Shown here piece after piece: positions 3,644 through 24,519 of a stretch of 35,460 nt of DNA. The translations under genes were made by a program, and so were the position numbers. Under the pieces are notes generated by a model. It was not told where the DNA came from. It saw only the letters and a program-made list of their open reading frames with translations, and made no database searches. The DNA comes from Lachnospiraceae bacterium (GTDB taxonomy: Bacteria > Bacillota > Clostridia > Lachnospirales > Lachnospiraceae), in assembly GCA_024403435.1 (NCBI GenBank), contig JAKSRV010000010.1, positions 1-35,460 on the forward strand, given 5' to 3'. The stretch's first letter is position 1, and each line of letters begins with the position of its first letter.

Positions 3644-4264
3644 TTAATTTTCCAATATAAGCTGAATTACTTTATTTGCCTGATGTGCTGCACATACAGT
3701 TACCCTCGGAGACATAAGTCCCATTCCGGCCCCTATATCCGTGTTTTCATCACCGCATATAAAAAGTCTCTTCATAAGCTGTCTGGTCTTTATCGTATTG
3801 GAATCTCCGTATCCGGCCATTCCGTTTCCCGACACCACTACAGTATCCTTTAGCTGTGTGAGTACCTCCTGCACGAGCATAGCTTTTTGTTCTGCCGCGT
3901 CAAAAGCTTCACATACTATCGGATATCCGGTTAGCAGCTCAGCCACATTATCAGGTGTCACCTTGATACATTTTGTTTCATAATCAAGATACGGATTGAC
4001 CTGACAAAGCAGCTCCTTGATAGCCTCCGTCTTGGGCGTACCAACCTGAGGAATAAGGTATGCCTGCCTGTTGAGATTCGTTACATCCACCACATCAAAA
4101 TCAATCAACAACAAATGTCCCACACCGCTTCTGGCAAGCATCATGGCAATATTGGAGCCCAGCCCGCCCAATCCTGCGATAGCAACTCTTGCATTAGATA
4201 ATTTCTCCTTGATATCCGCGGGGAATCTGGCATCAAAAGCCCGATCGAGTGTAGCCTTATCCAT
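3644..4264 (-). CDS. thiF: ThiS adenylyltransferase ThiF (short clostridial type)
   Basis: E1-like enzyme that adenylates the ThiS C-terminus so that sulfur can be loaded. The nucleotide-binding GLGGLGSN is at about residues 31-38, and the acidic DFD plus NLNRQ motifs follow. At 206 residues it is shorter than E. coli ThiF or MoeB. I find no CX2C zinc pair, in contrast to the E1-like gene at 15506-16336. Both traits fit the short ThiF subfamily seen in Clostridia. Its ATG overlaps the thiS stop by one base (TGATG), so the two are translationally coupled. Confidence 0.92.
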   Translation of the reverse strand: MDKATLDRAFDARFPADIKEKLSNARVAIAGLGGLGSNIAMMLARSGVGHLLLIDFDVVDVTNLNRQAYLIPQVGTPKTEAIKELLCQVNPYLDYETKCIKVTPDNVAELLTGYPIVCEAFDAAEQKAMLVQEVLTQLKDTVVVSGNGMAGYGDSNTIKTRQLMKRLFICGDENTDIGAGMGLMSPRVTVCAAHQANKVIQLILEN

Positions 4265-4458
4265 CAGCCGCCTCCCACAAAACGAAGCACTTCTATCTCA
4301 TCTTCATCCTTTATAGTGATTGCCTTAAGCTCATCTTTTGGTATGATATCCAGGTTGAGTTCTACGACTACTCTGTTAAGCTCGTATCCTTCTTCCGTCA
4401 GATAATCATACAGATTACGTCCGGCAATATCCTTCTGTTCTCCGTTAATTCTTACCAT
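4264..4458 (-). CDS. thiS: Sulfur carrier protein ThiS
   Basis: Ubiquitin-fold carrier of 64 residues that receives sulfur as a C-terminal thiocarboxylate for ThiG. It ends in VGGG with nothing after the glycines, so it needs no trimming, unlike the carrier at 16340-16546. Start chosen at the ATG at 4458 because AAGGAG lies 5 to 6 nt upstream; the longer frame starting at 4488 has no ribosome site and would begin inside the leader. It is first gene of the thiamine operon, 55 nt downstream of the leader terminator. Confidence 0.93.
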   Translation of the reverse strand: MVRINGEQKDIAGRNLYDYLTEEGYELNRVVVELNLDIIPKDELKAITIKDEDEIEVLRFVGGG

Positions 4459-4512
4459 TTTTTCTCCTTGATATAAAATAGAATCCAATAGGAAAGCAAT
4501 TTCCTATTACGC

Positions 4513-12190: not shown

Positions 12191-12808
12191 TTAATCGATT
12201 GCCTCTGTGATTATTTTCTCCAGCTCATTCTCGCTCAATGCCCTGCCCACTCTCATACTCTCTCTTGCAATGTCTGCAAAAAGATGATGTCTGATTTTGG
12301 AATCTGTAACCTTTTCTTTTACATACGGTCTGATTGAAGCCAGATAATCCAGTATCTCTTCGATATTGTCCGGAGTACTTTCTTCAAATCTTTTTCTCAA
12401 TTCCACAGCAACCTGCGGACTCGCTCCCGAGCTTGATACCCCGACTACCAGCGATCCTTTTTTATATACCGAAGGAAAAATAAAATCACACAACGGCTGG
12501 TTGTCCACCACATTTACAGGAAGATGCTTTTCGCGGCATACCAATCTTACCGTTTCGTTCAGCTCACTTATATTCGTCGCCGCAATTACATAGTCTGCAT
12601 CTTTGATATCTGTCGGTTCAAACTCTTTTTTAATAATCTCTTTAACGCAGCCGTAAGCTCCTATTTCCGGTAACACTTCAGGGGCGATCACTGTAATGTC
12701 GGCATCATATCCGTTGAGCTTTTCAATCTTTTCAAGCGCTATTCTACCTCCGCCGATCACTATACCCTTTAGTCTGTTCACTTCAAAAAAGAAAGGAAAA
12801 TAAGCCAT
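12191..12808 (-). CDS. Precorrin-2 dehydrogenase / sirohydrochlorin ferrochelatase
   Basis: Met8p/CysG N-terminal family enzyme for the last steps to siroheme: NAD-dependent oxidation of precorrin-2 and, in many members, iron insertion. It begins YFPFFFEV, then the Rossmann motif GIVIGGGRIALEKIEKL, VIAATNISELN, the VNVVDNQPLCDFIFPS segment holding the catalytic-Asp region, and GVSSSGASPQVAVELRKR. Start chosen at the ATG at 12808 (205 residues) with GAGGT upstream; the longer frame to 12868 would overlap the binding-protein gene. It is last in an operon with a siroheme reductase and a lipoprotein, so it probably supplies cofactor for both reductases in the window. The uroporphyrinogen methyltransferase half of CysG is absent. 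Confidence 0.9.
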   Translation of the reverse strand: MAYFPFFFEVNRLKGIVIGGGRIALEKIEKLNGYDADITVIAPEVLPEIGAYGCVKEIIKKEFEPTDIKDADYVIAATNISELNETVRLVCREKHLPVNVVDNQPLCDFIFPSVYKKGSLVVGVSSSGASPQVAVELRKRFEESTPDNIEEILDYLASIRPYVKEKVTDSKIRHHLFADIARESMRVGRALSENELEKIITEAID

Positions 12809-13919: not shown

Positions 13920-14789
13920 CTATTTTCCTTCGTATGCGTTATTTATCGCCGCACGGAATTCGTCTTCACCTACTCTCTGTATAGTGAATCTGAATCTCTC
14001 CCCCGGCTTTGCATTATCTTCAAAGAACTTAATGGCAGCATCCGCCACTCTGAGCAGTATGTCCTTATCTGTAATAATAGGAACAATCTGTTCGCCCTTA
14101 TAAATAGTATTGCCGAACAAACCACCAAAAGTCACCACATAACCGGGCTCATAATCCCATGCCTTTACAGGGCAGGCTTTTACACAACGACCGCAATTGA
14201 TGCATTTTTCCTTATCATATACAATCTTGCCATCCACCAATGAAAGAGCATCATTTCTGCAAGCCTTTACGCAGAGGCCACATGAAATGCAAGGTTCCGG
14301 TTTGTACTCAATAACATATCCGCCCTTGATACCAAGATCATTTTCTTCTGTCTTCAAACAATTATTACGGCAACCGGTAACACCAATCTTAAATTTGTGA
14401 GGAAGCTGTCTTCCGAAATATCTCTCATTAAGCTCTTTAGCCAAAGCATAAGTATCAATACATCCGCTGTTACAGATTTCTGCACCCTGGCATGCTGTTA
14501 TAGTTCTCACACCAGCACCACATACAGCCGGAGCCAACCCATCCTTAGCAAGTTCTGCCTTTACCTGTTCGATATCCTCATACTTAAGGTACGGAATCTC
14601 TACACTCTGACGTGATGTGAGATGCACTGTTCCATTACCGTATTTTTCCGAAATATCGGTAATCACCTTAAGATTGCTTGCTGTAAGCTTTCCACCGACA
14701 ACAGCGACTCTCATGCAAAAGAATCCCTGCTGCTTCTGTTTCATAAACCCACCTTTTTTTAATGATGCATAATCTATTCTTTCAGCCAT
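13920..14789 (-). CDS. Siroheme/ferredoxin sulfite-reductase-like protein, copy 2
   Basis: Single-chain member of the nitrite/sulfite reductase superfamily. Residues 1-80 form the N-terminal ferredoxin-like lobe, with TSRQ at 58-61. Siroheme-[4Fe-4S] ligands are C100, C106 (CX5C), C140 and C144 (CX3C). Two ferredoxin CX2CX2CX3C motifs follow at C167-C177 and C196-C206. The 289-residue length equals copy 1 (17224-18093) with no gaps, so the pair arose by duplication. Unlike copy 1, residue 93 is Gly instead of Arg and residue 107 is Asn instead of Pro, next to the cofactor cysteines, so substrate use may differ. It is first in an operon with a binding lipoprotein and the siroheme enzyme. Sulfite reduction is the likely role; nitrite is possible. 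Confidence 0.85.
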   Translation of the reverse strand: MAERIDYASLKKGGFMKQKQQGFFCMRVAVVGGKLTASNLKVITDISEKYGNGTVHLTSRQSVEIPYLKYEDIEQVKAELAKDGLAPAVCGAGVRTITACQGAEICNSGCIDTYALAKELNERYFGRQLPHKFKIGVTGCRNNCLKTEENDLGIKGGYVIEYKPEPCISCGLCVKACRNDALSLVDGKIVYDKEKCINCGRCVKACPVKAWDYEPGYVVTFGGLFGNTIYKGEQIVPIITDKDILLRVADAAIKFFEDNAKPGERFRFTIQRVGEDEFRAAINNAYEGK

Positions 14790-14997: not shown

Positions 14998-15432
14998 TTA
15001 GAAGTAGTATTCATCAGAATAAATTCTCAGGTCTTCCTTGGTAACCTCCCCGTTTTCCACCTGAAATGAATTAATAACCGCATTCTCTGCCATCAATGAA
15101 ATAATCATATAGCTGGCATTGGAATCAAATGAAAGTCTGATATCTTCTACCGAAGGTCTTGAAGGTGACGACGGATGAGAATGCCAGTTACCCAGAGGCT
15201 TATATCCGTTAGCTCTCATATCTTTGATTGCCGCAAGCTGCTCTTTAGGATCCAATGTAAAATGATCCTCAGCATGATCGATATTTGTAAGAAAATATAC
15301 TTTCTTAACCAAACGTCCATTCTCGTTTTCTTCTCCGGCTATGAGTCCGCATGCCTCCTCCGGAAGATGCTCACGAGCATACCGGACTATTTCATCATAC
15401 ATATGATATTCCATTCGAACAATTCCCATCAT
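14998..15432 (-). CDS. hcyD: JAMM/MPN metalloprotease, HcyD-like
   Basis: M67-type zinc isopeptidase fold with the complete JAMM motif: Glu26 (EEACGLIAG), H84-S-H86, then seven residues, S94 and D97. In Wolinella succinogenes HcyD trims the residue after the Gly-Gly of the carrier HcyS and later frees homocysteine from it; the Mycobacterium Mec+ protein does the analogous job with CysO. The 144-residue single-domain length fits these. The carrier at 16340-16546 ends in GGGQ, exactly the substrate type expected. It is last in the metY operon, 73 nt after the E1-like gene. Two adjacent ATG codons are possible starts; AAGGAG suits both. Confidence 0.85.
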   Translation of the reverse strand: MMGIVRMEYHMYDEIVRYAREHLPEEACGLIAGEENENGRLVKKVYFLTNIDHAEDHFTLDPKEQLAAIKDMRANGYKPLGNWHSHPSSPSRPSVEDIRLSFDSNASYMIISLMAENAVINSFQVENGEVTKEDLRIYSDEYYF

Positions 15433-15505
15433 CGTACTCCTTCAAATGTATTCCGGCCATTTTGAATCCACCGCTAATCTATGAATTCCTTACAGATATT
15501 CATGC

Positions 15506-16336
15506 TTAACTGCGAGGTGCCTCAAAACGACTTGCGGTCTCCTCACATACTTCCTGCTCATAATCAATGGGCTCAAGGATAGTCGGATTGTCTCCGCATA
15601 CTGCACACTTACAATCTCTCTTAATCTTAATCTTGTTGAACTTCATATCCAATGCATCGTAGGTAAGCAGTGCTCCGGTGAGAGGCTCTCCTACTCCGAT
15701 CAGATATTTTACTGCTTCCATTGCCTGGAGGCTTCCGATTACACCACCCATTGCACCGATAACACCGGCCTGCTTACAGGTGGGAACAGCGTCCTTCGGA
15801 GGAGGATTCTTGAATACACATCTGTAGCAAGGTCCCTTACCGGGCACATAGGTCATCAGCTGTCCCTTGAAGCGGATGATACCTGCGTGTGAAAAAGGCT
15901 TACCCTCAAGTACACAGGCATCGTTAATCAGGAACTTAGCAGGGAAATTGTCGGTTCCGTCAATTACGAAATCGTACTCTCTTACAAGTTCTCTGATATT
16001 GGTAGAATCAACGAACATTCTGTAGGTCTTAACAGTAACGTCGGGATTCATTGCTTCCATTGTCTCCTTGGCAGACTTAACCTTGGCCTTACCGATATCG
16101 GCAGTACCGTGAATAATCTGTCTCTGAAGGTTGGAAAGATCAACCTCATCTGCATCAACAATACCGATGGTTCCTACACCGGCTGCTGCCAAATACATAG
16201 CTGCAGGTGCTCCGAGTCCACCGGCTCCGATGATAAGAACCTTACCATTCATGAGCTTCTTCTGACCCTTTGCTCCTACTTCTTTCAGTATAATATGGCG
16301 CGAGTAGCGCTCAATCTGCTCATCTGTCATTGCCAT
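15506..16336 (-). CDS. hcyF: E1-like sulfur-carrier adenylyltransferase, HcyF-like
   Basis: ThiF/MoeB-family enzyme that adenylates the C-terminal glycine of a ubiquitin-like carrier. It has the N-terminal RYSRHI motif, GAGGLGAP at 38-44, DLSNLQRQ at 66-73, zinc cysteines C170/C173 and C244/C247, and the conserved Cys187 (VPTCKQAGV). This is the long MoeB-type form, unlike the zinc-less ThiF at 3644-4264, so the cell keeps separate activators for the two carriers. It starts 3 nt after the carrier gene, and the glycine codons of that gene serve as its ribosome site. MoeB for molybdopterin is the alternative, but no mo-cofactor gene is near, while metY, a JAMM protease and reductases are. Confidence 0.85.
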   Translation of the reverse strand: MAMTDEQIERYSRHIILKEVGAKGQKKLMNGKVLIIGAGGLGAPAAMYLAAAGVGTIGIVDADEVDLSNLQRQIIHGTADIGKAKVKSAKETMEAMNPDVTVKTYRMFVDSTNIRELVREYDFVIDGTDNFPAKFLINDACVLEGKPFSHAGIIRFKGQLMTYVPGKGPCYRCVFKNPPPKDAVPTCKQAGVIGAMGGVIGSLQAMEAVKYLIGVGEPLTGALLTYDALDMKFNKIKIKRDCKCAVCGDNPTILEPIDYEQEVCEETASRFEAPRS

Positions 16337-16339
16337 CGC

Positions 16340-16546
16340 TTACTGGCCTCCTCCCATGAAATAGAGGAACTCTACGCTGTCGCCGTCCTTGAGAACGGTG
16401 GTAGCCTTTGCCTCTGATTCTACAAACTCATCATTGATTGAAACCGTAACGTACTCAGGCATCTCTACCTTCTCTGCCTCGAGAAGTTCGGGAAGTGTAA
16501 GTCCGTCCTTATATTCTTTCTTATCACCTGCAACTGTAATTATCAT
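16340..16546 (-). CDS. hcyS: Ubiquitin-like sulfur carrier with GGGQ tail, HcyS-like
   Basis: A 68-residue ThiS/MoaD-fold protein. It has the LPELLEAEKV helix, an YVTVSINDEFV strand, the LKDGDSVEFLYFM segment and a C-terminal GGGQ. One residue past the di-glycine marks carriers that must be trimmed by a JAMM protease before activation; HcyS of Wolinella has Ala there, here it is Gln. After trimming and adenylation the carrier would hold sulfur as a thiocarboxylate for MetY. AAAGGAG lies 9 nt upstream. Codons GGAGGAGGC for the glycines form the ribosome site of the next gene. Confidence 0.85.
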   Translation of the reverse strand: MIITVAGDKKEYKDGLTLPELLEAEKVEMPEYVTVSINDEFVESEAKATTVLKDGDSVEFLYFMGGGQ

Positions 16547-16588
16547 TTTTATACTCTCCTTTTTGTAAGACTTAGCTAATCTGATGAT

Positions 16589-16906
16589 TTATAAATTCTT
16601 GTCAATCCATGCATTTAGCTGCATTGGATTAAGTGCTCCCACGCTTCTGTCCTTCTCTTCACCTGCTGCGAAAAAGATCAGTGTGGGATTTGCCTGTACG
16701 CCATACTTTTCAGCAAGCGCTGTGTCAAAATTGCTGTTAACCTTGTAGACTACCAGTTTATCCTCGTAATCATCCTCTGCCTGTCCGAGAACAGGTGCCA
16801 TCTTCTTGCAGGGAACACAGGAGTCTGAGTAAAAATCTACGATAACAGGCTTATCGCTCTTAAGGACCTTCTCCTCAAAATCTGCCTCTGAGATTCTTGC
16901 TGCCAT
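16589..16906 (-). CDS. Thioredoxin with CVPC active site
   Basis: Cytoplasmic 105-residue thioredoxin-fold protein. The active site is SDSCVPCKKMAPVL instead of the usual WCGPC, and the cis-Pro loop is ANPTLIFF. The change of the two central residues would shift redox potential or partner choice. Its ATG overlaps the TusA-like stop by one base. Position in the sulfur operon suggests it reduces a sulfur-relay or reductase intermediate, served by the TrxB at 24728-25651. A general thioredoxin role is not excluded. Confidence 0.9.
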   Translation of the reverse strand: MAARISEADFEEKVLKSDKPVIVDFYSDSCVPCKKMAPVLGQAEDDYEDKLVVYKVNSNFDTALAEKYGVQANPTLIFFAAGEEKDRSVGALNPMQLNAWIDKNL

Positions 16907-17151
16907 TACTCCTCCACCTTTCTGACATAAAGGGTATAAGTACCGTCCTCATTGTCCTCAAGTTTCAAAATCTTATGTCCCTCATCTTTAATGCTTCTGG
17001 GAACATTCTGTACAGGCTCTCCATCATTCATTCTGATAGCCAATACCTGACCGTCATCAAGCTCATCAAGTGTAACCTTAGCCTTTACAAATGTAAGAGG
17101 GCATACCTTATCGGTAATATCTACTTCCTCATCAAACTGAATATCTGCCAT
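16906..17151 (-). CDS. TusA/SirA-like sulfur relay protein
   Basis: An 81-residue TusA-fold protein with the sulfur-carrying Cys17 in KVCPLTFVKAK and the C-terminal DDGQVLAIRMNDGEPVQNVPRS region. The family CPxP motif reads CPLT, keeping Cys-Pro but losing the second Pro. TusA proteins pass persulfide sulfur between donors and acceptors. Here it lies between a siroheme reductase and a thioredoxin, so it may accept sulfur from the reductase or donate it to the carrier; that is inference. Start chosen at the ATG at 17151 with AGGAGG 8 nt upstream, shorter than the frame starting at 17211. Confidence 0.85.
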   Translation of the reverse strand: MADIQFDEEVDITDKVCPLTFVKAKVTLDELDDGQVLAIRMNDGEPVQNVPRSIKDEGHKILKLEDNEDGTYTLYVRKVEE

Positions 17152-17223
17152 TTTTTCATCCTCCTGAGATATACGATTATCAACATTTGGATTAATAAAT
17201 GCCAAATGCATAATCGTTAATAA

Positions 17224-18093
17224 TTATTTTCCTTCATATGCTGCCCGAATAGCCTTACGGAACTCTTCTTCACCGACTCTTTGAAGAGTAAGTCTGAATC
17301 TCTCTCCCGGATTTGCATAATCCTCAAAGAACTTGATTGCCGCATCCGCTACTCTGAAGAGTGTTTCCTTGTCCTTGATGATAGGAACAATCTGTTCGCC
17401 CTTATAAATCTTGTTTCCGAAAAGACCGCCAAACGATACGATATATCCGGGCTCATAGTTCCAAGAATCTGCAGGACAAGCCTTTACACAACGACCGCAG
17501 TTGTTGCACTTTTCCTTATCGATTACCACTTTACCGTCAACCATTGAAAGTGCACCCTCACGACAAGCCTTTACACATACACCGCATGAAATACAATCCT
17601 CGGGCTTATAATCGATTAAGAAACCTCCCTTAACACCAAGGTCATTTTCCTCTGCCTTTAAGCAGTTATTCTGACATCCTGTAAAGCCAAACTTAAACTT
17701 GTGAGGAAGCTCTCTTCCGAAATATCTCTCATCAAATTCCTTGGCAAGTGTATATGTATCGATACATCCGCTGGGACAAACCGCAGCGCCCTGACAAGCT
17801 GTAACAGTTCTGACTCTGGGACCGCATACGCCGGGTCTGACACCGCCTTTTTCAAGCTCTGCTCTTACCTCTTCGATGTCATCAAACTTGATAAAAGGAA
17901 TCTCCACACCCTGACGTGATGTCATGTGTACATAACCTTTTCCGTATTTTTCTGCAACTTCGGCAACAGTCTTAATGTTTTCTGCAGTAAGATTTCCTCC
18001 TACGACAGCAAGTCTTAAGGAAAAATATCCCTTCTGCTTCTGTCTCATGAAGCCGCCTTTTTTTAATGATGAATAGTCAATTTTTTCAGCCAT
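17224..18093 (-). CDS. Siroheme/ferredoxin sulfite-reductase-like protein, copy 1
   Basis: Single-chain sulfite-reductase-superfamily protein of 289 residues. It has TSRQ at 58-61, siroheme-cluster cysteines C100/C106 and C140/C144, and two ferredoxin motifs at C167-C177 and C196-C206, which would feed electrons directly. In this copy R93 and P107 next to the cluster are retained, closer to typical family members, so it is the better candidate for the sulfide-producing enzyme (Sir) of the thiocarboxylate pathway. It lies between metY (29 nt upstream) and the TusA-like gene (72 nt downstream). Related gut proteins include AsrC-type and ferredoxin-fused reductases. Confidence 0.87.
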   Translation of the reverse strand: MAEKIDYSSLKKGGFMRQKQKGYFSLRLAVVGGNLTAENIKTVAEVAEKYGKGYVHMTSRQGVEIPFIKFDDIEEVRAELEKGGVRPGVCGPRVRTVTACQGAAVCPSGCIDTYTLAKEFDERYFGRELPHKFKFGFTGCQNNCLKAEENDLGVKGGFLIDYKPEDCISCGVCVKACREGALSMVDGKVVIDKEKCNNCGRCVKACPADSWNYEPGYIVSFGGLFGNKIYKGEQIVPIIKDKETLFRVADAAIKFFEDYANPGERFRLTLQRVGEEEFRKAIRAAYEGK

Positions 18094-18122
18094 TTCTTTT
18101 CTCCAATATCACTCTTTCATAT

Positions 18123-19352
18123 TTATAATTTTTCTATAGCCTGAATAAAATCATCTCTTAAGTCTTCAAAATCTTCTATTCCGACGCTGATTCTGATCAA
18201 ATCATCATATACTCCCGCATCTTCCTGCTGCTTCTTCGTAGAATGAAGACTGATGGTTGATGCCGGGTGAATCACCAGTGTCTTGGTATCGCCTATATTC
18301 GATAATCTGTATGCTACATTCAGGTTATCGAGAAGCTTAAACGCTTTTTCCTTACTGCCCACACGCAGTGTAATAATCGCTCCGAATCCATTCTTTAGTT
18401 CCTTCTTGGCAATCTCATGCCATGGGCTGGATTCAAGACCCGGATAGTTGACTGTAAAGTCTTTGTAATTATCTTCCAGGAAATGTGCTAACTTTTCTGC
18501 ATTGCTGCATTCACGCTCCATTCTAAGTCCCAGTGTTTCAAGTCCTATTGAATTCAAAAAAGCTGTCTGCGGAGATAAACAGGCTCCGGTATTTCTGAAC
18601 AATCCGTTTCTCAATTTTGCGATATAAGCATATGGACCAAACTTCACATAATCGGCCATTCCCGGATATCTGTCTTTATCCCATTTGAACTTGCCCTTAT
18701 CGGTAAGTACACCGCTGATAGAATTACTGCTTCCGTTTATGTACTTGGAAGAAGAATTGATTACTATATCAGCTCCGTGTTCCAATACCTTGATCAGGTA
18801 AGGAGTTGCACAGGTATTGTCGACCAAAAGCGGTACATTATGTTTGTGTGCCAGCTCCGCAAGCTTATCAACATCTGTAACGTCCAGGCTGGGATTTCCG
18901 ATAGTTTCCGCAAAGACAAGTCTTGTCTTGTCGTTTATAGCTGCTTCTATCTTCTCCCAGTTGTTATTCTCAACATATCTGGTTACTATACCGAAGGCCT
19001 CCAGATCTCTGAAAAGATCAATGGTTCCTCCGTACAAGCTTGCACTCGATACTATTTCGTCGCCGCTTCTTACTATATTGGTGACCGCATTGAAAAGTGC
19101 CGCCATTCCGGAAGCTGCCGCTATAGTTCCGACTCCGCCTTCCAGCTTATTAATTCTGTTTTCAAAAGCACTTATGGTAGGATTGGCAACTCTTGTGTAA
19201 CAATAGCCCGGGGCTTTGTTGCTGAAGATTCCTGCCAGATCATCTGCAGTCTGCTGATAAAAAGCGCTGGACTGATATATCGGTGTTAACGTCGCACCAA
19301 ACTTTTCTTTTTTATCTACTCCATCATGTAAAAGAGCTGTGTTAAAGTTCAT
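18123..19352 (-). CDS. metY: O-acetylhomoserine sulfhydrylase MetY
   Basis: PLP enzyme of the Cys/Met-metabolism family that replaces the acetyl group of O-acetylhomoserine with sulfide, or with a protein thiocarboxylate in the HcyS system, to make homocysteine. Visible are YTRVANPTISAFENRINKLEGG near 52-73, GGTIDLF, FAETIGNPSLDVTD, LLVDNTCATPYL and the PLP-lysine segment INSSSKYINGSSNSISG. The region PASTISLHSTKKQQEDAGV near the C-terminus is typical. Length (409) fits. AAAGGAG is 7 nt from the ATG. First gene of the carrier operon under the promoter at 19384-19412. Confidence 0.93.
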   Translation of the reverse strand: MNFNTALLHDGVDKKEKFGATLTPIYQSSAFYQQTADDLAGIFSNKAPGYCYTRVANPTISAFENRINKLEGGVGTIAAASGMAALFNAVTNIVRSGDEIVSSASLYGGTIDLFRDLEAFGIVTRYVENNNWEKIEAAINDKTRLVFAETIGNPSLDVTDVDKLAELAHKHNVPLLVDNTCATPYLIKVLEHGADIVINSSSKYINGSSNSISGVLTDKGKFKWDKDRYPGMADYVKFGPYAYIAKLRNGLFRNTGACLSPQTAFLNSIGLETLGLRMERECSNAEKLAHFLEDNYKDFTVNYPGLESSPWHEIAKKELKNGFGAIITLRVGSKEKAFKLLDNLNVAYRLSNIGDTKTLVIHPASTISLHSTKKQQEDAGVYDDLIRISVGIEDFEDLRDDFIQAIEKL

Positions 19353-19412: not shown

Positions 19413-19454
19413 ATACGTATAATCTTTTTCCAGTTATAGGTAATTCCTTTAATG

Positions 19455-19480
19455 AAAACAGCGGAGCAAATGCCCCGCTG
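19455..19480 (-). terminator. Intrinsic terminator after the arylsulfotransferase gene
   Basis: On the minus strand a stem of CAGCGG and CCGCTG, extended inward by a G-U pair and GC/GC, is followed by TTTTC. It separates the transporter/ASST operon from the metY promoter about 45 nt further on. Confidence 0.65.
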
Positions 19481-19514
19481 CTTTCTAAGTGATATTGTTT
19501 TAGAGTGATATTGT

Positions 19515-21011
19515 TTACTTAAGTAATTCTGACTTCTTTACAGATGCTACGCAGAAGTCAACCTTTTCATCCTTGTCTTCCTTCTTGTTGGCACCCATTC
19601 CGGTAATATTTTCCTTGTTGGGATCTATACCGTCTACGATAGTAACCTTACCTGTTCCTGCACCGACAGATGCTCCTGGTACTCTGAATGTCTCTACATT
19701 GAGAGGCTCGATAGAAGTCTCTACAGGCTTTTCAACCTGAGGAACCCACTCATAAGGAACTCTGTAAGCACGATATACCATGTTCATGGTAAATTTACCA
19801 CCGATATTTCTGAAGTAAGGATTGATATACTCCCATACTATCTCATGCTCGGGAGTTACCTCGATGATTCTTCCGTCAGACCCCTCGGTAATAAGAGTGT
19901 TTCCGTTAGGAAGTCTCTGTACCGAACTGATATATGAGCTGTAGAACTTTGAAGCATCTGTAAAGAGGAGGAAGCCTGCTTCAAGAGGAGTATACTGCCA
20001 TACTATTTCAAGAGTGATAGGATCAAATTCAAGTACTCTTGAATAATCTCTGTGTGCATTGTTATTACCGGTTACTGACGAAGGATTGGGGCTACCGTAT
20101 CCGCCCTCGCCACCGTTATCGAATACCAGCAGATTGCCTTCTCCGGGAAGTCCCTTAGGAATCATATGGAAGTGATGCTGACCGATTATCCAACCAAGCT
20201 TACGAAGCTCTGGAGTCTTGGAAAAATCAGGTCCAATCTGCCATACCACCTTACCGGTCTCCTTGCTGATGATTGCAAGAATATTGGCATTTCTTGCGTC
20301 AAAAATTAAGTTATCGGGATGGAATCTCTCATCACCGGCATCATACCACTTGTTGGGTCCGAGAACAGATACACTGTTGATATGCATCCAGTCTCCGCCC
20401 GCTTCCTGATGAAGTCCGGGATTTCTAAAAAGTGTATTCTTGGCAGCTTCATCAAAATCAAACTCATCAAAATGATCGCTTGCTCTCCAGCTCCAGAGAA
20501 TATTTCCTTCCCAATCTACCTCGATAATCTTGTCATCGATGAGCTTCTTGTCGGTAATATCATGATTGTAGAGATTCTCGTGTGTAAGAAGTATAGTGTT
20601 ACCGCTGTCCACCTTGGGCTCTCCGCCGGGATAATAGTATCCTACGGTGTTGCCTTCTCTCTGGAAATCATGATGCTGTCTTGCCATCCACTTGGGCTCC
20701 TCACCGGGATCTGCCACAAGTTCGGTGTGGTCGAACTTCCAAACAATGTTACCATCCCAATCAACCTGTACAAGATCGAGCTGATCCTGGTATGCATACT
20801 TACCGGCTCTGGCACCTGTTGTACCGAGAACATATCCGCCGGGAAGAAGCTTATTGGGGAAACCTCCCAATCCCGCCCAGAGATTAACCTCATTTCCGTT
20901 CATGTCAATCAATAATGCACCCTTCGCTGAAGGATAAATTGTATAGCCGCTGTAGGCCTTATCTTTATTGTACTGAAGTACACCTGTTGCAAATACGCTG
21001 GGATATCCCAT
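19515..21011 (-). CDS. Cytoplasmic arylsulfotransferase-family (ASST) beta-propeller
   Basis: ASST enzymes move sulfate from an aryl sulfate to a phenolic acceptor through a sulfo-histidine, without PAPS. Family motifs visible: RQHHDF at about 111-116, DWMHINSV at about 207-214, GQHHFHMIPKG at about 277-287 and QRLPNGNTLITEG at about 365-377. Recurrent blade strands of the type IVW-x-aromatic (NIVWKF, NILWSW, KVVWQI, EIVWQY, EIVWEY) support a propeller. There is no signal peptide, unlike the periplasmic E. coli enzyme, but like the AstA/AtsRBC arrangement in Pseudomonas putida, where import precedes transfer. AGGAGG precedes the ATG. It is last in an operon with an importer and a thioredoxin. 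The sulfate donor, acceptor, and whether it might instead release sulfate or sulfite cannot be told from sequence. Confidence 0.85.
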   Translation of the reverse strand: MGYPSVFATGVLQYNKDKAYSGYTIYPSAKGALLIDMNGNEVNLWAGLGGFPNKLLPGGYVLGTTGARAGKYAYQDQLDLVQVDWDGNIVWKFDHTELVADPGEEPKWMARQHHDFQREGNTVGYYYPGGEPKVDSGNTILLTHENLYNHDITDKKLIDDKIIEVDWEGNILWSWRASDHFDEFDFDEAAKNTLFRNPGLHQEAGGDWMHINSVSVLGPNKWYDAGDERFHPDNLIFDARNANILAIISKETGKVVWQIGPDFSKTPELRKLGWIIGQHHFHMIPKGLPGEGNLLVFDNGGEGGYGSPNPSSVTGNNNAHRDYSRVLEFDPITLEIVWQYTPLEAGFLLFTDASKFYSSYISSVQRLPNGNTLITEGSDGRIIEVTPEHEIVWEYINPYFRNIGGKFTMNMVYRAYRVPYEWVPQVEKPVETSIEPLNVETFRVPGASVGAGTGKVTIVDGIDPNKENITGMGANKKEDKDEKVDFCVASVKKSELLK

Positions 21012-21077
21012 TCTGTTACCTCCTAAAACAATTAATCATCTTCTCAAAATTACCGATACTGTTATGTACTAAAAAAT

Positions 21078-21392
21078 TTACTGAAGCTTCTTGATTTCTT
21101 CCGCAATGATCAGCGGATGAATCTCTCCCACCAGCTTGTTGACCTCATCACCCTTCTTGAAAAAGATAAGTGTAGGTACTGCAGTGATATCAAATCTGCT
21201 CTGAAGAAAACTCTCTGCTTCAATGTTTACTTTTCCGAATACTGCTTTATCCCCGATTTCCTCGGAAAGCTTTTCTATTGCACCAACCAATTTCTTACAA
21301 TGTGCGCAGGTAGGAGTATAGAACTCCACCACAACCGCCTGATTTTCAGAAACGGTATTGTCAAAATCTATTGTTGTCAATTCCTGTATCAT
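21078..21392 (-). CDS. Thioredoxin-like protein with CAHC active site
   Basis: A 104-residue cytoplasmic thioredoxin fold: VVVEFYTPTCAHCKKLVGAIEKL active-site region and the cis-Pro segment TAVPTLIFFKKGDEV. CAHC differs from both WCGPC and the CVPC thioredoxin of the neighbouring operon. It lies directly upstream of the ASST gene; periplasmic ASST of E. coli also has its own thiol-disulfide partners (DsbL/DsbI), but those are oxidants, while this one is in a reducing compartment. A role in keeping ASST or the sulfur relay reduced is inference. AGGAGG is 7 nt upstream of the ATG. Confidence 0.88.
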   Translation of the reverse strand: MIQELTTIDFDNTVSENQAVVVEFYTPTCAHCKKLVGAIEKLSEEIGDKAVFGKVNIEAESFLQSRFDITAVPTLIFFKKGDEVNKLVGEIHPLIIAEEIKKLQ

Positions 21393-21436
21393 TCTTAATT
21401 CCTCCTGTGCATATATTCATTATTTGCCTTAATTCA

Positions 21437-22489
21437 TTAGTTAAACTTGATAGTAATTCTCTCAGGGAATGCAATCTCGATTGCCTTGGTATCAACGAAC
21501 TCTTTGATGTCGTAATCTGCTTCAAAACGACCGTTCTCAAATGCCCACTGTCTTACACCGTTGAGGTGCTCAGCCGCTTCTTCTGTAAAGCCGGGCTGAA
21601 TTTTGAAGTTTTTCCAGTTAGCCTTGAAATCCTCTTCTACAATGCCAAGCTTGCCTGCAAGATAAGCTGCACTTTCATCAAGGTGATCGGTAATGTACTG
21701 TCTGGTCTCCTCAAAAGCAAGGAGATAATTAGCAAGAAGGTCTGCATTTGCATCTACAAAGGTTCTGTTAGCAAGCATATATGAACCGGTTGTGAGACCA
21801 AGCTCGGTATAGGTTGCTACAAGTTGCCAGCCCTGCTCCTCAAAATACTTGGCATTTGCACCACCTACAATGTAAGCAGAAGCGCTGTTGCTCTGTGCAA
21901 GTGCAAGAGCTGTCTGTGTAGAATCTACGGCAACGATGTTCTGCTTGTCATAGTCAAGTCCGAGCCATGCAATTGCATTTGCAATATAGTAATCAACAAC
22001 AGTTCCTGTTGTAGTCATGAATCCTTTGCTGCCATCGAGAGCATCAAGATTATCAACATATTCAGGAGCTACATAGAGGCCACCTGTCATTTCAGATCCT
22101 GCGGTAAGCTCTGAGAACAATACCAGGTCTGTTACTCCATAGGTGTTACCAAGTCTGTTGACTGCCGCATAATCTGCCATCTCTCCGATATCTGCAGTTC
22201 CGTTTACGATTGCATCGATAGTAGCAATACCATAGATGTACTCGGTAACCTCAAGGTTAATGCCGTACTTTTCAAAAATACCCTGCTGAAGTCCGATCTC
22301 TGCAATGTACTGATCGGGCTGTCCTGTCATTACTGCTGCTCTGAGAGTCTGTAATTCTTTTCCGTCAGCACTTACTGTGGTAGTAGCTGTGGAACCGGTG
22401 CTTCCGGTACCGCTATTTGATGAGCATCCGGCGAGCACTCCTGTTGCCAATACTGCTGCCAATGCTGTTGCTAAAATCTTCTTTTTCAT
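21437..22489 (-). CDS. SsuA/NMT1-type substrate-binding lipoprotein
   Basis: Signal peptide with lipobox LAGC (Cys at about residue 22), then a Ser/Gly/Thr-rich tether. The two-lobe body has LQQGIFEKYGINLEV, AIVNGTADIGEMADYAAVNRLG, a helix-start loop TTTGTVVDYYIANAIAWLGLD and YLLAFEETRQYITDH. This is the pattern of sulfonate, taurine, nitrate or HMP-precursor binding proteins. In an operon with an SsuC-like permease and an ASST, an organic sulfate ester or sulfonate is the likeliest ligand. Thiamine precursors, also bound by this family, are a weaker alternative because the thi genes are 17 kb away under separate control. Confidence 0.87.
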   Translation of the reverse strand: MKKKILATALAAVLATGVLAGCSSNSGTGSTGSTATTTVSADGKELQTLRAAVMTGQPDQYIAEIGLQQGIFEKYGINLEVTEYIYGIATIDAIVNGTADIGEMADYAAVNRLGNTYGVTDLVLFSELTAGSEMTGGLYVAPEYVDNLDALDGSKGFMTTTGTVVDYYIANAIAWLGLDYDKQNIVAVDSTQTALALAQSNSASAYIVGGANAKYFEEQGWQLVATYTELGLTTGSYMLANRTFVDANADLLANYLLAFEETRQYITDHLDESAAYLAGKLGIVEEDFKANWKNFKIQPGFTEEAAEHLNGVRQWAFENGRFEADYDIKEFVDTKAIEIAFPERITIKFN

Positions 22490-22553
22490 AATTTTCTCCT
22501 CCTTAAATCACCCTTGTGATTTACTGTCTATTATTTTTCATAACGTTTATTTA

Positions 22554-23336
22554 TCAGGCTTTCTTTACTCCGAAGTGCTTAAGTAACTTGGCACCAAGGA
22601 AAAGAAGTAATCTATCTGCTACGAAGCCTAAAATTGCAAGTGTTACAATTCCGGCAAAAGCCCAATCGGTTTTGTAATACATTCTTGATGACTGGATTCT
22701 GTATCCGAGTCCGTCACCGCCTACGAGCATCTCTGCGGCGATTACACAGATGATACTTGAGCTGAGTCCGAGTCGAACTCCGGTAAAGATATTAGGTACT
22801 GCCGAGGGTAAGATAACTGTAAAGAATACTCTTACTCTTCCGGCACCCATGCAGGATGCAGCCTCTATAAGTGACTTGTCTGTTGATACAACACCTGCGA
22901 TGGTATTTACCAAAATCGGAAAGAAGGAAGCATAAAGGATAAGTGCTACCTTTGACTTGTCATCTACACCAAACCACATAAGAAAAAGTGAAGTAAGTGC
23001 GATGGCAGGTACAAATCTGAAAAGGTTAAGTACCGGCTCAACCAACCATCTGATGTGCTTAAAATGACCTACTATCAATCCGATGGGAACCGCTGTAGCT
23101 ATTGCCAAGCCCCATCCTTTTGCAACTCTTCCGAATGAAGCTGCGATATCTGACCAAAGTGTTCCTTCCTTTGCGAGCTTCAAAAGTGCATCACCTGTTT
23201 CAAGCGGACTGGGTAAGAAAATTTTGTCCAGTTTGAAAGCGCCTAATGACCAAATCAGAATTACCAATCCCCAGGAGATGATTCCGATCTGGATTATTTT
23301 GTTGAAAACATTGACTTTTTTCTGTGTGTTTTCCAT
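22554..23336 (-). CDS. SsuC/TauC-type ABC transporter permease
   Basis: A 260-residue membrane protein with about six hydrophobic segments. Family segments: LPSPLETGDALLKLAKEGTLWSDIAASFGRVAKGW near 35-70, then IGLIVGHF, NLFRFVPAIALTSLFLMWFGVDDKSKV (EAA-loop side) and PSAVPNIFTGVRLGLSSSIICVIAAEMLVGGDGLGYRI. This pattern is diagnostic of the sulfonate/nitrate/taurine permease group. AGGAGG lies upstream and it follows the ATPase stop by 14 nt. Confidence 0.92.
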   Translation of the reverse strand: MENTQKKVNVFNKIIQIGIISWGLVILIWSLGAFKLDKIFLPSPLETGDALLKLAKEGTLWSDIAASFGRVAKGWGLAIATAVPIGLIVGHFKHIRWLVEPVLNLFRFVPAIALTSLFLMWFGVDDKSKVALILYASFFPILVNTIAGVVSTDKSLIEAASCMGAGRVRVFFTVILPSAVPNIFTGVRLGLSSSIICVIAAEMLVGGDGLGYRIQSSRMYYKTDWAFAGIVTLAILGFVADRLLLFLGAKLLKHFGVKKA

Positions 23337-23350
23337 TTCGTCTTCCTCCT

Positions 23351-24412
23351 TTAGATATAGTAGAGATTTGAATCATCGAGAGACTTATTTGTAATGATTG
23401 TAGTCTTCTCATCATCGAATACATAAAGCTGATTAATAAGTACCTTTACCGTGTCACCGGGTTTAAGCGGTCCGTTTACCAAAGGTGAATTTGCCTTAAT
23501 CTTGATATCATGTACATTGAGAATCGCTTCGAAGTAGTTTCCTCTGAAAATACTCTGTTCAACAACCGCATCTTCGTAAGCAGGTGCATTTGCCTTGGGT
23601 GAATTCTCACTGCTGATTTCCACGAACTCAGCTCTGATAACTGCCTTGGTATTCTCACCTATTGAATCGAAGCCCTTGAGTTTTCCGTAGTCCTCAATGA
23701 TTGAAGACTTACCGATAAACTGTGCTACGAAAGGAGTCTTGGGATGGAGGTAGATATCTACCGGATCGCCAACCTGTTCTACACGTCCCTGATTGGTAAT
23801 TACTATCTCATCCGCAACCTCAATCGCTTCATCCTGATCGTGTGTTACGAAAATACTTGTGATTCCGATCTTGTCTATGGTTTCTCTGAGCCAGGTTCTG
23901 AGTTCCTGTCTTACCTTGGCATCGATTGCTGCAAAAGGCTCATCCAAAAGAAGAAGTTCAGGTTCGGGAGCAAGTGCTCTGGCAAGTGCAATTCTCTGTC
24001 TCTGTCCGCCTGAGAGCTGGTCGGGATATCTTTTTTCAAGTCCGGGAAGGTTTACCAGCTCGAGCAGCTCTGTAACTCTCTTCCTGATATATTCCTTATC
24101 TCTCTTCTGAACCTTGAGGCCGTATGCGATGTTGTCATATACAGTCATATATGGAAACAACGCATAACTCTGAAATACAAAACCTACACCTCTCTGACTG
24201 GGTGAAAGTCCGTTTACCAGCTTTCCGTTGATGTAGATATCTCCGTTGTCCTGATGTTCAAGTCCGGCTATCATACGAAGAATTGTTGTCTTTCCGCTTC
24301 CGCTGGGTCCGAGTAATCCGATCAGTTTTCCTTTTTCAATTTCAAAACTCACATTCTTGGATGCCTGACAATCACCGAAGCTCTTATTGATATTTTTTAA
24401 CTCTACGTACAT
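23351..24412 (-). CDS. CysA/PotA-type ABC transporter ATPase with C-terminal domain
   Basis: Walker A GPSGSGKTT is near residues 36-44, then Q-loop FVFQSYALFPYMTVYDNIAYGL, signature LSGGQRQR, Walker B LLLLDEPFAAID and H-loop FVTHD. After residue about 235 comes a C-terminal extension of over 100 residues (VGDPVDIYLHPKTPFVAQFIG and a TOBE-like beta region), as in sulfate/spermidine/iron ATPases. SsuB-type ATPases that normally pair with SsuC permeases lack this extension, so the combination is mixed. Start chosen at the ATG at 24412 (family N-terminus MYVELKN, AAAGGA about 10 nt upstream); the longer frame to 24463 adds 17 unlikely residues. First gene of the importer/ASST operon. Confidence 0.88.
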   Translation of the reverse strand: MYVELKNINKSFGDCQASKNVSFEIEKGKLIGLLGPSGSGKTTILRMIAGLEHQDNGDIYINGKLVNGLSPSQRGVGFVFQSYALFPYMTVYDNIAYGLKVQKRDKEYIRKRVTELLELVNLPGLEKRYPDQLSGGQRQRIALARALAPEPELLLLDEPFAAIDAKVRQELRTWLRETIDKIGITSIFVTHDQDEAIEVADEIVITNQGRVEQVGDPVDIYLHPKTPFVAQFIGKSSIIEDYGKLKGFDSIGENTKAVIRAEFVEISSENSPKANAPAYEDAVVEQSIFRGNYFEAILNVHDIKIKANSPLVNGPLKPGDTVKVLINQLYVFDDEKTTIITNKSLDDSNLYYI

Positions 24413-24519
24413 GTCATCACCGTCCTTTTCAAAACTTGCATCATGTTTTTGATGTTTCATCATCAGTTTTTCTATGTCCTTCTGACATCGTAAAGATTAT
24501 CACGTTATCAAAATGCTGT

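Follow-up and report, generated by a model that had tools for sequence, protein, structure and literature searches.

To our knowledge, the protein-thiocarboxylate route to methionine has been worked out in one organism only. Trimming of a carrier, its adenylation, thiocarboxylate formation, coupling by MetY and release by HcyD is reportedly the chain that Krishnamoorthy and Begley described in 2011 for Wolinella succinogenes; Tran et al., in the same year, are said to have added a second paper on this pathway. The W. succinogenes carrier HcyS reportedly has Ala as its cap. As of November 2017, according to an excerpt of PMC5764234, neither MetaCyc nor KEGG contained the route. Class 4e of Iyer 2006 combines a carrier, a JAB protein, an E1 without rhodanese domain, SirA/TusA, sulfite reductase and O-acetylhomoserine sulfhydrylase, and row 4e of its Table 1 lists low-GC Gram-positives and W. 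succinogenes (PMC1779556). SirA/TusA is described as always present in such clusters, with a predicted rhodanese-like role (PMC1779556).

Here we analyse the window, that is, the whole stretch of 35,460 nucleotides from a Lachnospiraceae bacterium, and the seven-gene operon within it (Table 1). We estimate at roughly 85% the probability that this operon makes homocysteine with protein-carried sulfur, a figure that applies to the core pathway and does not extend to a sulfur relay within it. Its assignment to the HcyS/HcyF/HcyD/MetY/Sir set of W. succinogenes, proposed in the first-pass annotation, is backed by the gene set, the motifs and the grouping of MetY with PDB 3RI6. In the predicted pathway, HcyD, a JAMM protease, would take the cap (here Gln) off HcyS-GGGQ, and the E1 HcyF would use ATP to adenylate the exposed glycine. 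Sulfite-derived sulfur, supplied via Sir, would turn this end into a thiocarboxylate, MetY would couple it to O-acetylhomoserine, and HcyD would cleave HcyS away, leaving free homocysteine. The catalytic activities of all operon proteins are predicted from sequence.

Table 1. Features of the window discussed in the text
Feature	Position	Strand	Evidence or remark
Seven-gene operon metY, sir, tusA, trx, hcyS, hcyF, hcyD	14998-19352	minus	open frames and Pfam
metY, O-acetylhomoserine sulfhydrylase, carrier-dependent clade, no SYHG loop	18123..19352	minus	PF01053, tree, loop
sir, small siroheme 4Fe-4S sulfite reductase, AsrC-like	17224..18093	minus	PF01077, PF03460, Fer4
tusA-like sulfur-transfer protein, VCPLT active-site motif	16906..17151	minus	PF01206, 71 bits
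Operon thioredoxin (trx), atypical SCVPC centre	16589..16906	minus	PF00085, 88 bits
hcyS-like carrier, ThiS family, GGG and one-residue cap Gln	16340..16546	minus	PF02597, TIGR01683, relatives
GGA GGA GGC, GGG codons of the carrier, also reading as putative E1 Shine-Dalgarno	16346..16354	minus	
hcyF-like E1/MoeB-type adenylyltransferase, no rhodanese domain, PTCKQAG cysteine	15506..16336	minus	PF00899
hcyD-like JAMM metalloprotease, HSHP-x6-S-x2-D intact	14998..15432	minus	PF14464
Hairpin, possible terminator	19454..19485	minus	between arylsulfotransferase-like gene and metY
Thiamine ThiS of the window, naked end	4264-4470		
Second small siroheme sulfite/nitrite reductase paralog, just downstream	13920..14789	minus	PF01077, 113 bits
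NAD-binding protein, siroheme-synthase (Met8/CysG N) look	12191..12808	minus	PF13241, 94 bits; recognised by eye
Upstream neighbours: SsuABC-like importer, CAHC thioredoxin, arylsulfotransferase-like protein	19515..24463	minus	

The operon, its neighbours and its distribution

The operon was recovered as first annotated: all seven genes are open frames on the minus strand, each with a Pfam match above cut-off, and the intergenic distances are -1 to 73 nt. The hairpin beside metY is stable (-26.3 kcal/mol, z -7.4, with none of 200 shuffles equally low). Its U-run forms part of the paired stem and it does not appear in the list of the terminator scan, so its role as a terminator is putative. A promoter-like pair lies 5' of metY at 19412-19384, in a window where such pairs are no more frequent than in shuffled sequence. 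Consequently, metY to hcyD is graded only as likely to be a single transcription unit. A search of the window for RNA regulators with Rfam gave no match at gathering score.

The grouping of the seven genes is more than chance, since it recurs in many other genomes. The closest named relatives of the operon are from Lachnospiraceae, and the gene set is widespread, occurring in Lachnospiraceae, Fibrobacter, Treponema and others. The relatives show the same set: among 101 loci with a carrier, TusA is found in 100, E1 in 97, JAMM in 95, MetY in 80, Sir in 75 and thioredoxin in 62, some of the absences being due to short contigs. The E1 taken for L033 and L136 belonged to a second cluster; the E1 alignment used the nearest E1 per locus and omitted L103, L124, L140 and L148, which have no E1.

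MetY matches PF01053 (Cys_Met_Meta_PP) at 395 bits and scores 454.4 bits against TIGR01326, below the cut-off of 495.1. In a tree that excluded the loop columns, the window MetY groups with 3RI6, the W. succinogenes MetY, apart from ordinary sulfhydrylases (support 99/93), and a rebuilt tree gave the same grouping (97/91). The branch of 3RI6 is long, and its alternative placement had a p-AU of 0.039 and then, in the rebuilt tree, 0.115, which is not a rejection; simple bit scores place the window MetY closer to the ordinary sulfhydrylases 8SF5 (381 bits) and 7KB0 (374) than to 3RI6 (318). The SYHG loop is missing in 3RI6, in 27 aligned hcy-linked MetYs and in all 81 hcy-locus MetYs at an identity of at least 45%. 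Of 14 other MetY-type genes taken from the family's genomes, 13 have the loop; the remaining one is a shorter relative of 382 aa. An ordinary free-sulfide type was considered for the window MetY and fails on both the loop and the TIGR01326 cut-off. The loop provides a simple marker separating carrier-dependent from ordinary sulfhydrylases. Two further ordinary sulfhydrylase-type genes are present in the same genome, so the hcy pathway is not the sole route; this suggests redundancy. The genome also has a MetA-type gene with TGAPVE, which we take to be the acetyl type.

As for the remaining proteins, Sir (NIR_SIR, PF01077, 100 bits; TIGR02912, 161.5 bits, below the cut-off of 324.1) would yield sulfide. 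HcyF matches ThiF (PF00899) at 292 bits over residues 11-245 of 276, without a rhodanese domain at E 0.001, and its PTC cysteine is found in 96 of 97 aligned rows, the window included. HcyD matches Prok-JAB (PF14464) at 83 bits, has an intact zinc motif HSHPSSPSRPSVED and finds its nearest PDB sequence in 2KKS (131 bits). For TusA, a start at 17151 (MADIQFD), which follows AGGAGG, is preferable to one at 17211; the Cys-Pro motif of the protein is kept in nearly all relatives. TusA had been annotated as an extra, unnamed member of the pathway; we reject it as a new member, since Iyer 2006 already has it in all operons of the class (PMC1779556).

The neighbourhood might bear on sulfur supply. 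The second reductase is a neighbour with a putative role in the pathway, and the NAD-binding protein, whose relatives are found close to the cluster at some of the loci, would supply siroheme. The genome, which is 81% complete, gave no CysD/CysH-type match, and an organic sulfur supply is therefore possible; the upstream neighbours are a possible source. The SsuABC-like importer scores 51.5 bits against SsuA_fam, below the cut-off of 163.5, and the PDB matches of the arylsulfotransferase-like protein (E 0.0014) do not suffice for mapping catalytic residues. Among the open-access titles listed, nothing apt was found on arylsulfate sulfotransferase as a sulfur source.

Carrier cap and the hcyS-hcyF junction

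The GGGQ end of the carrier, noted at first annotation, is read in the sequence as VEFLYFMGGGQ followed by the stop. The carrier matches PF02597 (ThiS) at 46 bits and exceeds the cut-off of TIGR01683 (thiS), with 59.9 vs 37.45 bits; hcy-type carriers in these genomes are readily misnamed ThiS. The first-pass annotation regarded a cap other than Ala as special, a view that did not survive the comparison with relatives. All 113 hcy-type carriers examined end in GGG and a cap, with Q and C most frequent. Among 100 intact carriers the first cap residue is C in 38 and Q in 32, which rules out Gln as a distinctive cap, and on the tree this residue switches at least 32 times. Since cap identity varies freely among relatives, Ala is not counted as pathway-defining either. 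Carriers capped with MV or C are already published, according to excerpts of PMC6006322. Carriers with no JAMM gene in the stretch examined have a naked end in 37 of 40 cases, the exceptions being three ThiG-linked Pseudomonadota carriers, which are capped. Weak carrier matches, where inspected, mostly proved to be ThiS of the thiamine type or ThiS-ThiG fusions; the unfused ones were used as controls. Within the window, the thiamine ThiS has a naked end. It may fairly be inferred that HcyD removes Gln from HcyS-GGGQ. The cap would hold the carrier inactive until HcyD acts, its identity being of little importance, and such an ever-present yet free cap is directly testable.

The glycine codons of the carrier may have a second use. 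The sequence leading into the E1 start reads GGGAGGAGGCCAGTAAGCG-ATG, and GGAGGAGGC encodes the carrier glycines while doubling as a Shine-Dalgarno-like sequence. GGAGG is present in 80 of 87 pairs with the HcyF start at most 15 nt away and in 1 of 11 pairs with a more distant start. These counts take the start codon nearest the carrier stop as the HcyF start, which favours short gaps; starts placed from a fixed anchor gave 79/86 for close and 1/10 for distant pairs. Thiamine ThiS genes also have GGAGG, in 14 of 20 cases with a close next start and in 8 of 16 without. After kinship was taken into account, four supported independent pairs remained (mean 3.4 for the link vs 0.1 against), too few for significance. 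As the GG codons read as a ribosome-binding site of HcyF, its translation is probably coupled to that of HcyS. The dual use of these codons may account for the caps being mostly of one residue.

Sulfur transfer and alternative readings

The CVPC thioredoxin, proposed at first annotation as an addition to the pathway, has held up as a recurrent member with an atypical motif (62 of 101 carrier loci). In a comparison that took in further thioredoxins from eight genomes, the operon thioredoxins mostly have SC[VI][PA]C in place of WCGPC, and all 63, the window included, have no Trp ahead of the first Cys; one of them clusters with ordinary thioredoxins in the tree. The protein is inessential to the mechanism, since 39 of the 101 loci lack it, among them all 15 from Fibrobacter. 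In this group, sulfur would perhaps be passed as persulfide, from TusA to the HcyF cysteine, and not as free sulfide alone, and the thioredoxin would reduce an acyl-disulfide or persulfide intermediate, a role that is directly testable. One may speculate that in Clostridia these elements form a closed persulfide relay and do not draw on free sulfide: sulfur would travel from Sir to TusA, the HcyF cysteine and an HcyS acyl-disulfide, with release by the dedicated SC[VI][PA]C thioredoxin, dual-use glycine codons and a cap lock of free identity. We regard this complete scheme as tentative and rather doubtful; if true, carrier and activator would be made together in most such operons.

The plain W. 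succinogenes chemistry, to which we would give somewhat less than even odds, has Sir giving free bisulfide directly to HcyS-AMP, with TusA and thioredoxin only assisting Sir or the redox balance and passing no sulfur to HcyF. It matches the free-bisulfide supply by Sir that Krishnamoorthy and Begley reportedly described in 2011, and the many loci without thioredoxin (39/101) agree with it. However, TusA in 100 of 101 loci and a ThiF-type cysteine in 96 of 97 E1s would be expected of a persulfide route. Iyer 2006 predicted a rhodanese-like role for SirA/TusA (PMC1779556). There is a slim chance that MetY works on free sulfide and that the carrier serves another acceptor, be it for making cysteine, for thiolating tRNA or for conjugation to proteins. 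Such a reading could draw on the MetA-type gene and the ordinary MetYs of the genome, and on HcyD scoring 73 bits against the desampylase model (cut-off 130). Against it, 80 of the 101 loci have MetY close to the carrier, and MetY falls with 3RI6 in the tree and has no SYHG loop. Searches at E 0.001 gave no match to cysteine synthase, tRNA thiolase or E2 families for any of the seven proteins.

The cap itself might be functionless, a by-product of the hcyS/hcyF overlap whose codon merely sets the Shine-Dalgarno spacing. Supporting this idea are the spacing of 9 nt between GGAGG and the HcyF start in 56 of 80 cases and the one-residue caps, found in 68 of 87 close vs 1 of 11 distant pairs. Nevertheless, all 11 distant pairs are capped as well, and by arithmetic the same 9 nt would result if an uncapped end were followed by a 2-nt gap. 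In the window, GGAGG of the thiamine ThiS, which is naked, lies 6 nt ahead of the next ATG. This explanation was therefore mostly rejected, and we consider it unlikely. A duplicate thiamine (ThiS/ThiF) system is barely credible: the carrier does score above the thiS cut-off, yet separate thiS, thiF and thiG genes are present in the window, their ThiS being naked, whereas the operon carrier is capped and no ThiG is found among the seven proteins. The reading we prefer is that of homocysteine synthesis with protein-carried sulfur.

Comparison with known systems

The W. succinogenes pathway reportedly shares the gene set with the operon, including the capped carrier, JAMM, E1 and sulfite reductase, and its MetY (3RI6) belongs to the same clade as the window MetY, with the same loop loss. 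The differences are the cap, reportedly Ala there and Gln here, the extra thioredoxin of the window operon and, with regard to sulfur supply, the lack of a CysD/CysH-type match in the 81% complete genome. The nearest solved carrier is the 'ThiS' GmR137 (PDB 2K5P/3CWI), presumably from Geobacter metallireducens, with the sequence FLYFMGGGK; Lys is probably its cap, as the protein has 70 residues in all. Unlike the window carrier, it is filed as a thiamine protein. The operon thioredoxin scores 62.5 bits against NF047697 (clostridial TrxA), under the curated cut-off of 140; we take this family to be linked to glycine reductase.

Among the matches listed for HcyS, HcyD and HcyF in open-access literature, only HCys for homocysteine was found. 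As far as this literature was searched, three points are new: the thioredoxin in the hcy set, MetY loop loss as a marker and a second, putative role of the diglycine codons as Shine-Dalgarno of hcyF. The CysO/JAMM/cysteine synthase operon (rows 4c and 4d of Iyer 2006) was dismissed as a match, there being no cysteine synthase among the seven proteins. Class 4e names no thioredoxin, and the word has 0 occurrences in the main text of Iyer 2006 (PMC1779556), whereas the window operon has one. In excerpts of PMC10880999, TrxA3 of Clostridia, with its [G/S]C[V/E]PC motif, resembles the hcy thioredoxin in being operon-dedicated and having an atypical centre; it serves glycine reductase, and the hcy-set thioredoxins, unlike TrxA3, often have Ala, Thr or Ser for Pro. 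As excerpted from PMC6006322, PtmS2 (cap MV) and PtmS3 (cap C) have a cap after GG, as does the window carrier, and PtmS1 is a JAMM protease thought, like HcyD, to expose GG before activation. PtmS2 and PtmS3 serve thioacid antibiotics, whereas the hcy set would serve methionine.

Gene content of the operon and its relatives

The cluster is correctly described in every part by the first-pass annotation, all seven genes being located on the minus strand (see table), and the assignment to the homocysteine (hcy) pathway of the Wolinella succinogenes type is supported by both the gene set and the grouping of MetY with 3RI6, the PDB structure of the W. succinogenes enzyme. The same annotation had proposed TusA as an unnamed extra member; this does not hold, since class 4e clusters always contain SirA/TusA (Iyer 2006, PMC1779556). 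Features that deserve pursuit are the operon thioredoxin, the freely varying cap, the overlap in coding and the MetY loop. Intergenic distances within the operon are -1 to 73 nt, and a hairpin of -26.3 kcal/mol is predicted by folding ahead of metY. The source assembly comprises 2.3 Mb in 168 contigs and is 81% complete, the window being its contig C2.

Genes of the hcy operon in transcription order
Gene	Position	Strand	Remark
metY	19352-18123	minus	first in transcription order
sir, small siroheme/4Fe-4S sulfite reductase	18093-17224	minus	
tusA	17151-16906	minus	better start used
thioredoxin	16906-16589	minus	
ThiS-type carrier	16546-16340	minus	
E1/MoeB-type protein	16336-15506	minus	
JAMM protease	15432-14998	minus	last in transcription order

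Of 200 genomes of the family searched for the JAB domain, 57 had a match at E 0.001 and 31 had one above the Pfam cut-off. Around the better matches 20 stretches were retrieved; 15 have an hcy-type carrier, and in the other five the JAMM gene stands by itself, has only E1 beside it or adjoins the end of a contig. A carrier profile built from 16 sequences (the window and those 15) detected hcy-type carriers (>68 bits) in 16 of 391 genomes of the class, our own included, and at least 572 confirmed relatives among named genomes. The best 80 of these, which are the most profile-like and not a random draw, belong to Lachnospiraceae, other Clostridia, Fibrobacter, Treponema, Ruminobacter, one Synergistaceae MAG and one Planctomycetaceae MAG; the closest named kin among them, the Lachnospiraceae MAG L083, has an identical carrier. 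Pooling the 20 and the 80 with six wider stretches gave 106 loci, 101 of them with the carrier. Near it we found TusA in 100, E1 in 97, JAMM in 95, MetY in 80, Sir in 75, thioredoxin in 62 and thioredoxin reductase in 22, part of the absences being due to short contigs.

The sole other sampled genome of the same genus (G116, 99% complete) yielded a JAB-domain match that is only weak (E 9e-5, below the cut-off), which suggests that the cluster is not fixed throughout the source genus. A second cluster type, in which a longer E1 adjoins a divergent JAMM protein, was seen in relatives L033 (527-3706), L051 (15832-17761) and L048 (1335-3368). In L033, this E1 has 488 aa with an N-terminal MoaD-like stretch ending LIAGG, and the cluster also adjoins a loop-less MetY.

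The MetY loop and the supply of sulfur

In the PDB score list of the window MetY, 8SF5 and 7KB0 rank above 3RI6. In the alignment, both the window MetY and 3RI6 are without the ten-residue stretch P-[DN]-x-SYHG, which is likewise absent from 27 aligned hcy-linked MetYs chosen for spread (window included). Seven genomes of the family supplied 14 other MetY-type genes, 13 of which have the stretch (one reads TYHG), the fourteenth being a 382-aa relative used as outgroup. None of 81 hcy-locus MetYs at >=45% identity has the stretch; two chance YHG matches among them fall outside it or in the short form. With the loop columns removed, hcy-linked MetYs join 3RI6 with support 99/93. The alternative, 3RI6 grouping with ordinary sulfhydrylases, had a p-AU of 0.039 in the first tree and of 0.115 in a tree rebuilt after dropping two long rows, where support was 97/91. 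We take the missing loop as a sequence marker of hcy-linked MetY; its absence might give room for the carrier tail. At L175 (G116:C7:389300-392800), an open stretch of 827 aa takes in two tandem Cys/Met PLP-enzyme genes, one for an ordinary sulfhydrylase that has SYHG, the other for a shorter relative.

All 16 genomes tested encode a MetA-type acyltransferase, and our own bears TGAPVE, which we take to be the acetyl-type motif. The own genome also has two further full-length sulfhydrylase-type genes (on contigs C114 and C19), both with the SYHG loop. A CysD/CysH-type protein (PF01507) was found in three of eight genomes (G153, G008 and G122) and not in the other five, namely our own, which is incomplete, and G116, G102, G191 and G311, which are 99 or 100% complete; thus, some members of the group may draw sulfite from a source other than activated sulfate. 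Candidate sources are the SsuABC-like importer and the arylsulfotransferase-like gene beside the cluster, the latter being near the hcy cluster in eight related loci, five of them also with a small thioredoxin. It is tempting to speculate that sulfuryl transfer onto that small thioredoxin could yield sulfite without activated sulfate. The arylsulfotransferase-like protein of the window (19515-21392) starts MGYPSVFATGVL and by eye has no evident signal peptide. In the window, L038, L083, L084, L097 and L105, the gene of such a protein adjoins its own small thioredoxin (CAHC/CSHC/CPHC) and an SsuABC-like importer.

Possible dual use of the glycine codons

In the window, the GGGAGGAGG ahead of the E1 start consists of the codons of the carrier's GGG. 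Among relatives, GGAGG occurs in 80 of 87 whose E1 start is no more than 15 nt away and in 1 of 11 with a more distant start (Fisher p 1.4e-8); two loci lacking a measured carrier-E1 gap are left out of this count. With a fixed anchor for the E1 start the figures are 79 of 86 and 1 of 10, respectively. GGAGG lies 9 nt from the E1 start in 56 of the 80 and 8 to 10 nt from it in 66. GGA makes up 32% of glycine codons in E1 genes. The kinship-corrected test comprised four supported pairs (3.4 for, 0.1 against), a sample too small to reach significance. One-residue caps are found in 68 of 87 close pairs and 1 of 11 distant ones. Under a looser match, GGAGG is also frequent in thiamine-type ThiS (14 of 20 with a close next start, 8 of 16 without), so carriers of this kind may in general use their glycine codons for ribosome binding. 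The window's thiamine ThiS (4264-4470) is naked, ending at GGG and stop, with GGAGG 6 nt before the next ATG.

The free cap and the operon thioredoxin

The Gln cap, previously proposed as distinctive, proved to be one of many. One of the 101 carriers (L142) is cut by a contig end; all 100 intact ones have residues beyond GGG, with caps 1 to 15 residues long. Whole caps are C in 33, Q in 27, R in 9 and others in 31, and the first residue is C in 38, Q in 32, R in 9, A in 9, S in 8, T in 2, M in 1 and N in 1. Some carriers are near-copies or possibly the same species from two collections, and 94 of the 100 differ in the last 60 residues. Together with 12 further carriers (8 + 4) and the window, 113 of 113 are capped, 107 with a JAMM gene within the examined stretch. 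Among 40 separate carriers without a JAMM gene in the examined stretch (2.0 to 3.2 kb), 37 end naked, the top-scoring being L246 at 61 bits. The sequences in the profile are themselves capped, but with the cap taking up one of 68 columns, little bias is expected. The cap is not exclusive to the hcy system, since three ThiG-linked ThiS of Pseudomonadota (L224, L225 and L238) are capped AR, AV and ASSPNIS with no JAMM gene in the 3.2 kb examined. When mapped on a tree of 97 E1 rows (quick method), the cap's first residue requires at least 32 changes and thioredoxin presence 9.

The W. succinogenes carrier reportedly has Ala as its cap, and the nearest PDB carrier, 2K5P/3CWI, reads GGGK up to residue 70 of 70. 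Solved as a 'thiamine-biosynthesis ThiS', the latter has FLYFMGGGK and scores 73.5 bits against the hcy-type profile, versus 28.6 for the next PDB chain; judged by sequence, it is probably misnamed. Caps as such are known, PtmS2 having MV and PtmS3 a single C (PMC6006322).

In 45 of the 63 operon thioredoxin rows (window included) the centre is SDSC[VI][PA]C, and the Trp preceding the first Cys is replaced in all 63 (S 55, T 4, G 3, K 1). The 14 Trp-bearing thioredoxins from elsewhere in eight genomes that were entered in the tree have WCGPC in nine cases and WCAPC, WCMPC, WCGYC or WCGKC in the remainder; one operon row groups among these ordinary ones. Two more thioredoxins, with GCVPC, occur in G191. 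None of the 15 Fibrobacter loci has the operon thioredoxin. The PTC cysteine of E1 is present in 96 of 97 rows. In a bold reading, a persulfide and acyl-disulfide route involving the TusA cysteine and this E1 cysteine would be resolved by the operon thioredoxin. Dedication of a thioredoxin with an atypical centre has a precedent in clostridial glycine reductase operons, whose own dedicated TrxA reads [G/S]C[V/E]PC (PMC10880999).
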